Shown piece after piece: positions 47,652 to 50,477 of a stretch of 64,000 nt of DNA. The position numbers and the translations under genes are program-made. Each line of letters opens with the position of its first letter. Within the stretch, counting starts at the first letter, position 1. Source of the stretch: Neoroseomonas marina (lineage in GTDB: Bacteria; Pseudomonadota; Alphaproteobacteria; Acetobacterales; Acetobacteraceae); NCBI RefSeq assembly GCF_012927745.1, contig NZ_JABBKX010000006.1, positions 124,001 to 188,000 on the forward strand. Reading direction: 5' to 3'. Under the pieces are notes generated by a model. That model worked only from the letters and a program-made list of their open reading frames with translations, did no database searches and had not been told where the DNA came from.

Positions 47652-48830
47652 TCAGGCGCGTTCGAGCAGGCCGTGCCGCGCGAGCCTGCGGCAGAAATCC
47701 AGCGCGTTCTCGCCCAGCGCGGCCGGCGTCGCACCGTCCTCGAGCGCCTGGAGCCAATCGAGCTCCGCGGCCGAGAGTGTCTCGACGCCGCCATACCAGC
47801 GCAGCGCGGCGCCGCCCTCGGGCAGCGGGACGATCGCGTGGTGCATCGTCTCCGACAGGCGGAGCCGGTCGTCGGCGCCCGGCGGCGGCGTATGGAGCGC
47901 GCGGCCCGGCAGGGACATCCGGTCGCGCAGCACGCGATCGAGCGCGTTCACCGCCATCCGGTCCGCGACATCCGGCCGGTCCAGCACCTCGAGCGCGGCG
48001 GCGAGGCGGCTACGCAGCAGCGCCACGCCTTCGGGCTCGGCCAGGCGCCAGGTCGGGATCGCCGCGCGTAACGCGGGTTCCTCCGCCTCGAGCTCGCCGA
48101 GCAGGGCGCGCAGCACCTCGCCCAGGCCGGGTTCGAGCAGGCCGATCGTGATGTGCAGCGACGGCTCGGCGCCGGCCTGGACCATCGCCTCATGCATCAC
48201 GCCGCGCGGCAGGTAGAGCGCATCGCCCGGCGCCATCACCAGCTCATGCGGCTCGCCCTCGGGCGTGGCGTTGTTGCGCCAGGGCGTGTGGCGGGTGGGC
48301 GCGGCGTAGGGGATCGCGTCCCACACCCGCCAGGCCTTGCGGCCGGAGACCTGCAGCACCAGCACGTCATGCGTGTCGAAATGCACGCGGAAGCCCTGCG
48401 CACCCGGCGGGGTGAGGTAGATGTTCGCCTGCACGCCGTGCAGGAAGGCCTTCTCCAGCCCACGGCAGAAACGCGCGAGCGGCGGGTGGATCTCATGGAA
48501 CTGGGAGACGACGAGACTCGCGCCCTCGTCGTGGCGGGCCATCAGGCGCGGCAGGTCGACGCGGTCGCCGCCCTCCTCGATGTACTCCTCGATCGGAACG
48601 GCGGCGCTGCCCTTGCGCGCGCCGTCGGCCATCGACACGCGCGGCGTCCGTGCCGCGTCGGTGCGCAGGAAGGCGTCGAGGTCGCCGATCGACAGCAGCC
48701 CCGTGAAGCGGGCCGGATCGTTGCCCGGCATCAGGCGCCACGCGGTGCCTTCGCGCAGCGCCAGCCCGTCCTCGAGCGGCATGGTGCCGAAGGCGAGTGC
48801 CCAAACATCCTCGGCGAGTGTCGCTACCAT
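47652..48830 (-). CDS. Cupin_4/JmjC-type 2-oxoglutarate oxygenase-like protein
   Basis: A 392-residue protein of the group that includes ribosomal oxygenases such as YcfD, an arginyl hydroxylase. The iron site is visible as H150-x-D152 in VHFDTHDVLVLQVSGRKAW, and H213 in YLPRGVMHEAM after APGDAL. The C-terminal part (about 230-392) is a helical region as in other members. ATG at 48830 overlaps the end of the upstream repeat-protein gene by 7 bases, so they are translationally linked. By family it would hydroxylate a protein side chain; the repeat proteins are the obvious candidates, which is inference. Confidence 0.8.
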   Translation of the reverse strand: MVATLAEDVWALAFGTMPLEDGLALREGTAWRLMPGNDPARFTGLLSIGDLDAFLRTDAARTPRVSMADGARKGSAAVPIEEYIEEGGDRVDLPRLMARHDEGASLVVSQFHEIHPPLARFCRGLEKAFLHGVQANIYLTPPGAQGFRVHFDTHDVLVLQVSGRKAWRVWDAIPYAAPTRHTPWRNNATPEGEPHELVMAPGDALYLPRGVMHEAMVQAGAEPSLHITIGLLEPGLGEVLRALLGELEAEEPALRAAIPTWRLAEPEGVALLRSRLAAALEVLDRPDVADRMAVNALDRVLRDRMSLPGRALHTPPPGADDRLRLSETMHHAIVPLPEGGAALRWYGGVETLSAAELDWLQALEDGATPAALGENALDFCRRLARHGLLERA

Positions 48831-49261
48831 CGTGATCCTCTGCCGCGCCCGGCGGCGTCGCGCGGGTCGCTGTCTGAAAAGCCGGTGCGCGGGCGGCCCC
48901 GGCCGGCGGCATCGTTGGGGTCGCTGTCGGAATAGCCGGTGCGGGGCCGGCCACGCCCGGCGGCGTCGCGCGGGTCGCTGTCGGAATACCCGGTCCGCGG
49001 CCGGCCGCGGCCCGCCGCATCGCGCGGGTCGCTGTCGGAAACCCCGGTGCGCGGTCTGCCGCGCCCTGCCGCGTCGCGCGGATCGCTGTCGGAGTACCCG
49101 GTGCGCGGACGGCCGTATCCCGCCGGATCGCGCGGATCGCCGTCGGACAGGCCGGTGCGACCCTGAGCGACCGCGGCGGCGGGAACCAGACCCGCGGACG
49201 TGCCGATCACCACCAGCCGGCGCGTCAGCCGGCCTCGACGGGCTTCGTCATCCGCGACCAT
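48824..49261 (-). CDS. Exported six-repeat protein A (18-residue units)
   Basis: A 145-residue protein. Residues 1-35 form a leader with an RR motif (LTRRLVVIGTSAG) ending near AVAQ, Tat-like. The rest is six units of 18 residues, RTGYSDSDPRDAAGRGRP and variants, ending FSDSDPRDAAGRGRGSRW. The units alternate acidic (D-x-D-P-x-D) and basic (GRGR) patches. The ATG at 49261 directly precedes the leader. I know no function for this repeat. It overlaps the JmjC-like oxygenase gene and follows its paralogue by 13 bases. Confidence 0.75.
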   Translation of the reverse strand: MVADDEARRGRLTRRLVVIGTSAGLVPAAAVAQGRTGLSDGDPRDPAGYGRPRTGYSDSDPRDAAGRGRPRTGVSDSDPRDAAGRGRPRTGYSDSDPRDAAGRGRPRTGYSDSDPNDAAGRGRPRTGFSDSDPRDAAGRGRGSRW

Positions 49262-49274
49262 GGCCCATGCGCCG

Positions 49275-49850
49275 TCAGCGCCAGCCGCGGCCGCGGCCGG
49301 GCGCATCGCCCGGGTCGTTGTCGGTCACGCCGCGCTGGCGATAGCCGCCACGGCCGCGACCCGGCCCGTCGCTGGGGTCGGCGTCGGTGATGCCGGTGCC
49401 GCGCTGGCGCCAGCCCGTGCCGTAGCCCGACGGGTCGCGCGGGTCGCCGTCGTTGATGCCGGTATAGGCGCGCCCCTGCGGCGCGGCGCGATAGCCGCGG
49501 CCCTGTCCGGCGCCGTCGCCGGGATCGTTGTCCGTGATGCCGGTGCGGGGTGCGCCGCGATAGCCGCGGCCCTGTCCGGCGCCGTCGCCGGGATCATTGT
49601 CGGTGATGCCGGTCCGCGGGCGATAGCCGCCGCGGCCATAGCCCGGCCCGTCGCCGGGATCGGAATCGGTGATGCCGGTGCGGTACTGGACGGGCGTCGG
49701 TTCCAGCGCTTCTGCAGCGCGCGTGGCCGTCGCGGTCGCGCCCCCTGCGACCGCGAGGACGAGGAGGCGCCGGCCGAGGCTGCGTGAGGGCGCCGGGCCG
49801 TCCGCCTGCGGCGCGTCGGGCGCACCCTTGGTGTCGTCACGTTCGGTCAT
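49275..49850 (-). CDS. Exported six-repeat protein B
   Basis: A 191-residue paralogue of its neighbours. An N-terminal hydrophilic part is followed by an RR leader (LGRRLLVLAVAGG) to about residue 48. Six units of 17-28 residues follow: TGITDSDPGDGPGYGRG, then TGITDNDPGDGAGQGRG twice, TGINDGDPRDPSGYG, TGITDADPSDGPGRGRG and the terminal VTDNDPGDAPGRGRGWR. The core theme is constant while spacers vary (Gly, Tyr, Arg, Pro). The operon order and the same closing unit argue that the three proteins share one role or one modifying enzyme. Confidence 0.73.
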   Translation of the reverse strand: MTERDDTKGAPDAPQADGPAPSRSLGRRLLVLAVAGGATATATRAAEALEPTPVQYRTGITDSDPGDGPGYGRGGYRPRTGITDNDPGDGAGQGRGYRGAPRTGITDNDPGDGAGQGRGYRAAPQGRAYTGINDGDPRDPSGYGTGWRQRGTGITDADPSDGPGRGRGGYRQRGVTDNDPGDAPGRGRGWR

Positions 49851-49940
49851 CGGCGTCGCTCTCCTTCCCCCAGGCGCATCATCCTGCGGAGAGCGGCCCT
49901 ACGGCAAGATTGCGCCACGCATGCTGCGTGCGCCGGGTCA

Positions 49941-50477
49941 CTACCAGCCGCGGCCGCGCCCCGGCGCGTCGCGCGGGTCGCTGTCCGAGACCTGACGGCG
50001 GGAACTGCCACGGCCCTGCCCGGGTCCGTCGCCGGGGTCGGCGTCGGTGTAGCCAGTGCGGACGGGGCCCCGGTATCCGCCACGACCCTGGCCGGGCCCG
50101 TCGCCCGGATCGGCGTCGGTGTAGCCGGTGCGCGCGGGGCCGCGGTATCCGCCGCGCCCCTGGCCAGGTCCGTCGCCCGGATCGGCGTCGGTGTAGCCGG
50201 TGCGCGCGGGGCCACGGTATCCGCCGCGCCCCTGGCCAGGTCCGTCGCCCGGATCGGCGTCGGTGTAGCCGGTGCGCGCGGGGCCGCGATATCCGCCGCG
50301 GCCCATGCCCGGTCCATCGGCCGGATCGGCATCCGTGATGCCGGTGCCGCGCGGTGCGTAGACCGGCTGGGGCGCGACGACGCACCCCGCCAGCGCCGGC
50401 GCCGCGGCGCCCACCGAGGCAAGCTTCAGCACCAGCATGCGGCGCTTCAGGCGCGGCGCGCCGTCATTCTCATCCAT
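49941..50477 (-). CDS. Exported six-repeat lipoprotein C (24-residue units)
   Basis: A 178-residue protein. The leader RLKRRMLVLKLASVGA ends with a lipobox, ALAGC, so unlike its paralogues it is a probable lipoprotein. Six units follow, four of them nearly identical at 24 residues (RTGYTDADPGDGPGQGRG plus GYRGPA). The last unit is VSDSDPRDAPGRGRGW, as in the other two. It is the first gene of the run and is divergent from a Bug receptor gene 145 bases away, so the operon promoter should lie in 50478-50622. Confidence 0.73.
   Translation of the reverse strand: MDENDGAPRLKRRMLVLKLASVGAAAPALAGCVVAPQPVYAPRGTGITDADPADGPGMGRGGYRGPARTGYTDADPGDGPGQGRGGYRGPARTGYTDADPGDGPGQGRGGYRGPARTGYTDADPGDGPGQGRGGYRGPVRTGYTDADPGDGPGQGRGSSRRQVSDSDPRDAPGRGRGW
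50040..50330. repeat. Tandem 72-base direct repeats inside gene C
   Basis: Four consecutive units of about 72 bases, nearly identical at DNA level, encode the central 24-residue units of repeat protein C. Near identity at synonymous sites implies recent duplication or gene conversion. A similar 54-base repetition occurs in gene A (about 48840-49165). Copy number could vary between strains. Confidence 0.7.

Follow-up and report, generated by a model that had tools for sequence, protein, structure and literature searches.

What does an oxygenase of the JmjC type act on when its gene follows three genes for apparently exported proteins built from short repeats? The question is raised by a locus in a 64,000-nucleotide stretch of Neoroseomonas marina (Acetobacteraceae; RefSeq assembly GCF_012927745.1, contig NZ_JABBKX010000006.1, positions 124,001 to 188,000 of the forward strand); this whole stretch is called the window here, and positions are counted from its first letter. 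We propose, with a probability of about 0.62, that the JmjC_2 oxygenase is a dedicated enzyme that hydroxylates aspartates of the repeat proteins before their export by the twin-arginine translocation (Tat) route. The four genes are consecutive on the minus strand, in the order RP1, RP2, RP3 (RP, repeat protein), and oxygenase:

49941..50477, minus strand: RP1, a 178-residue repeat protein with an Arg-Arg signal, a lipobox-like LAGC, and 6 units
49275..49850, minus strand: RP2, a 191-residue repeat protein with the signal LGRRLLVL and 6 units
48824..49261, minus strand: RP3, a 145-residue repeat protein with 6 units; the start at 49261 was chosen, and the first ATG is at 49306
47652..48830, minus strand: gene for a predicted JmjC_2 Fe(II)/2-oxoglutarate oxygenase of 392 residues, with H150-x-D152...H213 and K165
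48824..48830, minus strand: overlap of 7 bases between the RP3 stop and the oxygenase start, from the sequence

An earlier note on this DNA, made from the letters alone, had described three adjacent minus-strand repeat genes with 18 units in all, the last overlapping the oxygenase gene by 7 bases. The overlap is borne out by the sequence, and the repeat genes are borne out by the open reading frames (ORFs), a motif scan, and shuffles. In a six-frame translation of the window, D-x-D-P-x-D-x-x-G-x-G matches 18 times, always inside 48824-50477, and 100 locally shuffled windows gave 0 matches. One RP2 unit closes with GYGT instead of GYGR. The three proteins are simple in composition, being rich in Gly, Asp, and Arg, and they contain no His, which rules out histidine hydroxylation for the window. 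None matches an NCBIfam family up to an E value of 1 or a Pfam family above its cutoff, with RP2 and RP3 giving weak Pfam matches below the cutoff. For one relative, identity with the suprabasin repeat (Pfam, 28.4 bits against a cutoff of 31) was considered and judged to be low complexity. The structure model of RP2 is unstructured and has no confident fold (predicted local distance difference test [pLDDT] score, 45.5).

Whether the repeats and the oxygenase belong together was asked across genomes. A scan with one genome per species returned 271 oxygenase relatives, and the best 80 of the 271 were taken as named loci, which lie mostly in Acetobacteraceae/Roseomonadaceae, with some in Phreatobacter and Hyphomicrobiales. 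Adjacency was defined as a same-strand ORF with at least two units within 400 bp upstream of the oxygenase. Such an ORF is present at 71 of the 80 loci, with a median gap of 38 bp, and none of the 80 has a repeat ORF on the opposite strand within that range. The nine misses are L057, L065, L066, L073, L074, L076, L086, L089, and L120. Eight of their genomes carry repeat genes elsewhere, namely, those of L073, L074, L076, L086, and L089 and the genomes G031, G020, and G033, to which L057, L065, and L066 belong. At the ninth, L120 (G009), a decayed repeat ORF that falls under the two-unit rule lies just upstream, and the oxygenase leaves the contig. Gene order varies by lineage: the repeat gene lies upstream, is downstream in G049 and G460, and is divergent in family f23. 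Conserved linkage was the test that the earlier note had named beforehand, and it held, both at the 71 of 80 loci and from genus to phylum. Separately, the oxygenase itself reads as two pieces in different frames at L087, G146:C1:1560487-1561642, and G009:C93:7167-7977.

Joint presence and absence give the same picture in samples of increasing breadth. With the enzyme counted at an E value below 1e-50, the numbers of genomes with both, enzyme only, repeat only, and neither are 29/0/1/5 in the genus sample (35 genomes), 26/1/2/171 in the family sample (200 genomes), 9/1/0/279 in the class sample (289 genomes), and 8/1/0/389 in the phylum sample (398 genomes). Enzyme and repeats are adjacent in all 9 class genomes that have both, and under a stricter cut of 1e-100, the phylum counts become 8/0/0/390, the enzyme-only genome at 1e-50 being G828. 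The five genus genomes with neither are G007, G015, G018, G026, and G034, the last of which keeps a 50-residue oxygenase fragment. In genera g1, g61, and g88, some members have both while sisters have neither. The subfamily thus tracks the repeats in presence and absence in the family, class, and phylum samples, and the system spans at least seven sampled genome families of the window's class (f1, f4, f13, f16, f23, f63, and f128). Within the window's family, most of these genomes also have a ribosomal-oxygenase-like paralogue; in the window's own genome, it is the second JmjC_2 gene and sits in a separate tree branch. Paralogue-only genomes of the family and class samples have no repeats, except G163; the genus sample adds the gapped G006.

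Because the link held at the genus, family, class, and phylum levels, the pairing of enzyme and substrate is well supported. The joint gain and loss, the adjacency that persists through changes of gene order, and the conservation of catalytic residues together lead us to regard the repeats as probably the oxygenase's substrate.

The enzyme itself is clearly placed in its family, matching Pfam JmjC_2 (PF08007) with 91 bits against a cutoff of 22 (5.8e-26). The earlier note had read an intact H150-x-D152...H213 iron site, and the alignment agrees: the ligands H150, D152, and H213, as well as Lys165, are kept in 102 of 102 subfamily rows, these being the rows that score 300 bits or more. We take Lys165 to have a 2-oxoglutarate role. 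The solved structures closest to the oxygenase in sequence are MINA53, NO66, and YcfD. An AlphaFold model of the oxygenase (pLDDT, 89.7) matches NO66, MINA53, and YcfD over its whole length in Foldseek; for NO66, the match has an E value of 3.2e-23 over 453 alignment columns, with a template modeling score of 0.66 by query length and a root mean square deviation of 6.7. FIH is a distant fold match (9.3e-8). Judged by Foldseek and secondary structure, the model contains the architecture of the ribosomal oxygenases (ROX), in which a JmjC domain is followed by dimerization and winged-helix domains. Its C terminus has strands at 331-335, 341-345, and 348-352 and helices at 354-364, 369-372, and 376-385, beside which stand extra short strands at 323-325 and 389-391. 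This bbb-aaa order (three strands, three helices) agrees with the definition of the RiPP recognition element (RRE) quoted in PMC12710340, where RiPP stands for ribosomally synthesized and posttranslationally modified peptide; here and below, papers given by PMC number are cited from the parts available.

Despite the shared predicted fold, the oxygenase forms a subfamily of its own. Thr140 and Pro141 mark this subfamily (102/102 and 99%), and the paralogue rows have Ser at 140 in 29 of 29. Counted in the alignment, the invariant Tyr138 equals MINA53 Tyr167. MINA53 Ser257 touches the target His through a hydrogen bond (PMC9994133); all 102 subfamily rows have Gly there (Gly230). No substrate-binding residues were retrieved from the available part of PMC5862935.

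Which residue of the repeats would be hydroxylated is a narrower question, and it turns on the repeat units, of which there are two types: type 1, [ST]-D-x-D-P-x-D-x-x-G-x-G-R-G, and type 2, T-D-x-D-x-G-x-x-x-D-x-x-G-x-G-R-G. Conservation was scored in 174 ORF strings, which have at least two units and an Arg-Arg within 120 residues upstream and are unique as strings, so that cut copies of one gene possibly recur. Each type 1 position was scored against the rest of the motif (leave-one-out). The three Asp positions are invariant (785/785, 744/744, and 744/744), the two Gly positions reach 745/747 and 744/745, and Pro reaches 719/738. After more loci were added, the set grew to 181 strings (195 without the Arg-Arg filter); in the 181, Arg follows GxG in 771 of 801 units with a two-residue spacer and is missing from 30. 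Among distinct units, Arg is present in 93.8% of 487 (type 1) and 90.7% of 108 (type 2). The top seven letters after the second Asp in the 108 distinct type 2 units are S, T, G, N, Q, A, and R, with no P. Both types occur within one string in 10 of the 174. Repeat ORFs have 2 to 13 units, and short relatives with one or two units stand beside the enzyme in family f23.

A plasmid of Streptomyces clavuligerus, pSCL4, bears on the same question. Its enzyme (L271:4775-6170), annotated just as a cupin, is 36.8% identical to a query from family f23 over 94% of that query. An ORF of 48 residues, 91 bp upstream of the enzyme's annotated start, contains ADNDPSDPP and ADPDPFDP, that is, D-x-D-P-x-D twice, together with a leader-like SLEPDEI; it has no GxGR and no Arg in its motifs. 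We regard the ORF as a candidate RiPP precursor; it is a single case, and its pairing with the enzyme is itself putative.

We take Asp as the target because it is invariant, is common to both unit types, and is kept in the Streptomyces peptide, which lacks Gly-Arg; overall, we give this assignment even odds. The earlier note had named Asp, Pro, or Arg as possible targets, and it is Asp that the counts favor. The target of YcfD sits in a Gly-rich loop, and hydroxylation of the Arg of each G-x-G-R, with the Asp residues serving for recognition, is the main rival, although we consider it unlikely. It draws on the Arg that follows GxG in 771 of 801 two-residue-spacer units and in most distinct units of both types; on YcfD, an Arg hydroxylase, being among the fold relatives (PMC6006756); and on the JmjC-type RiPP enzymes PbsQ and BipG, which work on Arg-derived ornithine (PMC12257519 and PMC12707348). 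Yet 30 of the 801 units do without Arg while the three Asp positions never vary, and the S. clavuligerus motifs lack Arg altogether. Hydroxylation of Pro at D-P, for which the 719 of 738 two-residue-spacer units would speak, appears very improbable, since type 2 units have no P among their top letters after the second Asp and both types coexist inside 10 of 174 strings.

The other alternatives concern the role of the repeats. They might be a partner, a scaffold, or a metal store linked to the oxygenase for another reason, with the enzyme's target elsewhere, for example, in a ribosomal protein. The ROX fold over the enzyme's whole length and the lack of a known product are consistent with this, but most genomes of the window's family have a separate paralogue that, where it is alone, comes without repeats (family and class samples, except G163), and it is the subfamily that tracks the repeats in presence and absence; we find such a role quite improbable. 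Nearly as improbable, in our estimate, though a little less so, is a true RiPP system, in which the repeats would be multi-core precursors whose units are hydroxylated, cut out, and released as a small peptide. The one- or two-unit relatives beside the enzyme in f23, the precursor-like peptide of S. clavuligerus, and an enzyme cousin that has a Nif11 leader peptide on one side and LanM on the other all fit it. On the other side, the window genes flanking the operon that were searched for families (SMP-30-like, DUF1194, and TctC) include no protease or dedicated exporter, loci outside the window having been inspected for these by eye alone, and the Arg-Arg signals and lipobox-like sites point to export of whole proteins. 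The multi-core layout that the earlier note had suggested therefore stands as an analogy and not as a description of substrates that resemble whole Tat-exported proteins. Finally, a low-complexity protein rich in Gly, Asp, and Arg might adjoin a housekeeping oxygenase by chance; the adjacency at 71 of 80 loci and the matched presence and absence in three samples rule this out, and we give it practically no weight.

Several points weigh against the proposal that the oxygenase hydroxylates Asp of the repeats. The 80 loci, being the best among 271, are biased toward near relatives. Score cuts were chosen after gaps were visible, that for the enzyme after the gap between subfamily and paralogues had been seen. 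One-sided Fisher tests give 1.8e-5 (genus), 3e-29 (family), 3e-16 (class), and 6e-16 (phylum), values that, like the counts, overstate independence because the genomes are related by descent and some (e.g., G000) recur between samples. Three genomes are discordant at a contig end: G006 (genus sample, repeat only), where the contig ends inside the apparent start of a third repeat gene; G149 (family sample, enzyme only), on a 4.3-kb contig; and G233 (family sample, repeat only), at a contig start. G163, the remaining discordant genome of the family sample, has repeat genes and no subfamily enzyme was found in it; a contig end had been considered as the cause and was withdrawn, a 318-bp contig tail being no explanation. 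G431 of the class sample has the enzyme without detected repeats, on a contig that ends 46 bp past the enzyme match, and the enzyme of G828 (5.8e-61, the most distant of nine) has a Nif11 peptide and LanM nearby instead of repeats. The RRE-like order of the C terminus is not specific to the subfamily because the winged helix is general to the ROX fold, having been described for RIOX1, RIOX2, and YcfD alike (PMC6006756), and Gly230 is weak evidence on the target because 24 of 29 paralogue rows share the Gly. Arg, at 771 of 801, is highly conserved too, and the literature searches turned up no modification reported for this family. Lastly, the ribosomal-oxygenase-like paralogue could be an alternative or second modifier where it stands beside repeats.

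Such paralogues were seen beside repeats in Falsiroseomonas and relatives (L071, L072, L079, L081, L084, L093, and L122), and at L265, L266, and L268, the paralogue is the sole JmjC gene that adjoins repeats.

How the repeat proteins would meet the enzyme and leave the cell is suggested by their N termini. A simple Tat rule asks for Arg-Arg and, no more than 8 residues later, a hydrophobic 12-mer. Of the 195 repeat ORFs, 39 with fewer than 60 residues upstream were set aside; RP1, RP2, and RP3 pass the rule, as do 155 of the remaining 156 ORFs. When the upstream letters were shuffled, 10.9 ORFs passed on average and at most 16 did (20 rounds). The NCBIfam Tat model matches none of RP1 to RP3, and one of seven scanned relatives exceeds its cutoff (21.8 versus 16.7). 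From these N termini, we infer that RP1 to RP3 are exported and that Tat is the route. Some families have a second N-terminal motif, seen by eye, like L-[TS]-D-x-[DEQ]-I, ahead of the Arg-Arg. Modification in the cytosol before export is proposed because the enzyme has no obvious signal and its putative substrates do.

The proposed sequence of events is as follows. The oxygenase would hold the unstructured repeat chain in the cytosol, where its C-terminal winged-helix domain possibly grips the N-terminal region of the repeat protein, so that leader recognition by the enzyme is a plausible element. Each unit would receive one hydroxyl, most likely on the beta-carbon of an Asp in D-x-D-P-x-D or in its type 2 counterpart, D-x-D-x-G-x-x-x-D, and the modified protein would then leave by the twin-arginine route, to be lipid anchored in some cases. 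A single enzyme appears to serve several repeat genes per genome, whether or not they are linked to it. Once exported, the hydroxyaspartate polymer may bind metals, for example, Ca or Fe, a guess made because the motif is acidic and one that we hold to be doubtful. Taken as a whole, an undescribed system with a ROX-fold enzyme, many-site Asp hydroxylation of Tat-exported repeats, and one enzyme for linked and unlinked substrates is put forward tentatively, at slightly less than even odds.

Comparison with known systems helps to place this proposal. The ROX enzymes NO66 (RIOX1), MINA53 (RIOX2), and YcfD resemble the window oxygenase in whole-length fold, iron site, and Tyr167/Tyr138. The window enzyme differs from them in being a subfamily of its own, with Thr140-Pro141, Gly230 in place of Ser257, and linkage to exported repeat genes, and this genomic linkage points to a substrate other than a ribosomal protein. 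It differs from the histidyl enzymes MINA53 and NO66, in particular, in lacking the His-contacting Ser, and RP1 to RP3 lack His. The nearest chemical analogy is the Asp beta-hydroxylation in repeats by FIH and AspH, whose substrates differ; enzymes of this type beta-hydroxylate Asp or Asn in ankyrin and epidermal growth factor (EGF) repeats. Aspartyl activity has been described for FIH (PMC9994133).

Closer in genetic setting are the RiPP systems, since a precursor-type gene that adjoins a modifying enzyme, as at 71 of 80 loci, is a RiPP-like trait. PbsQ and BipG, of the biphenomycin family, are JmjC-type RiPP hydroxylases tied to ornithine hydroxylation (PMC12257519 and PMC12707348). They are like the window oxygenase as JmjC-type hydroxylases on a ribosomally made precursor but differ in using ornithine made from Arg, a short macrocycle motif, and other partner enzymes. 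According to a 2025 paper (PMC12710340), fish and algae have PF08007 proteins that carry RRE-like domains, with no nearby precursors in these eukaryotic cases; their closest bacterial homologues, at about 30% identity, occur in RiPP-like contexts. The Pfam domain and the bbb-aaa C-terminal order are common to these proteins and the window oxygenase, and the available part of that paper names no precursor, organism, or repeat for the bacterial homologues. Among the matches listed in our literature search, judged by title and the start of the abstract and with subscription literature thinly covered, none described the repeat proteins or connected them with JmjC_2.

To our knowledge, substrates have been identified for few bacterial JmjC_2 enzymes, and we know of no counterpart to an exported poly-hydroxyaspartate protein. 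Genomics here provides an unusually clear candidate for a JmjC_2 substrate, its invariant residues, and putative substrates that differ in nature, having from 2 to 13 units of two types and including short two-unit forms. If the proposal is true, exported multisite proteins would join ribosomal proteins and small peptides as targets of protein hydroxylation in bacteria, the ribosomal-oxygenase fold would be connected with RiPP-like recognition, and the poly-hydroxyaspartate product would be a material or a metal-binding polymer.

Trees place the window enzyme among more distant cousins. They were built from selected rows (74 of 148; 64, with four long-branch rows dropped; and 55), and in the 55-row tree, the label DxD_linked follows the score and so takes in G431, which lacks detected repeats. 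The S. clavuligerus enzyme groups with other families' repeat-linked enzymes and several plasmid and RiPP-cluster cousins (Shimodaira-Hasegawa-like approximate likelihood ratio test [SH-aLRT], 98), and the position of the window's clade relative to the cousins is an open fork in two of the trees. A single origin of the repeat-linked enzymes was considered and rejected; it appears as one side of an unstarred branch in one tree (SH-aLRT, 81), the other trees giving an open fork. The cousin in G828 (L259:3309-8013) lies between the Nif11-type leader peptide and LanM, the three forming a lanthipeptide cluster in which the tailoring gene is of the JmjC type. A Pseudanabaena cousin is also near LanM, and one on a Rhizobium etli plasmid (L273) is downstream of a 77-residue hypothetical protein, a radical SAM/SPASM gene, and another hypothetical gene. 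No D-x-D-P-x-D peptide was seen at the other fetched cousin loci, small ORFs having been scanned in part of them. On Streptomyces plasmids (L272, L281, L283, L284, and L285), small ORFs ending in SDGND stand by a JmjC cousin, an aldo/keto reductase, and a hypothetical gene, which is, as judged from the genes present, a recurrent RiPP-like cassette. The SDGND peptides were considered as relatives of the repeats and rejected, having no D-x-D-P-x-D and enzymes in another branch.

Orphan repeat genes with the same Arg-Arg signal occur elsewhere in many genomes. The window's own genome has two, L138 (G000:C20:589 kb) and L139 (G000:C1:472 kb), and a JmjC gene was seen beside neither. The same neighbors of orphan repeat genes are seen again in other genomes of a genus. 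In family f23, a gene of about 480 residues starting MFDLRPV lies near the orphans of three genomes that represent two genera (L260, L261, and L262). Beyond that, no shared partner was seen in an inspection of start sequences by eye, made without a family search. Large orphan repeat proteins are encoded at L158 and L159 (G037), in frames of 386 and 358 residues with SRRSFL signals; the repeat gene of L159 lies just downstream of genes that we take to resemble ftsA and ftsZ.

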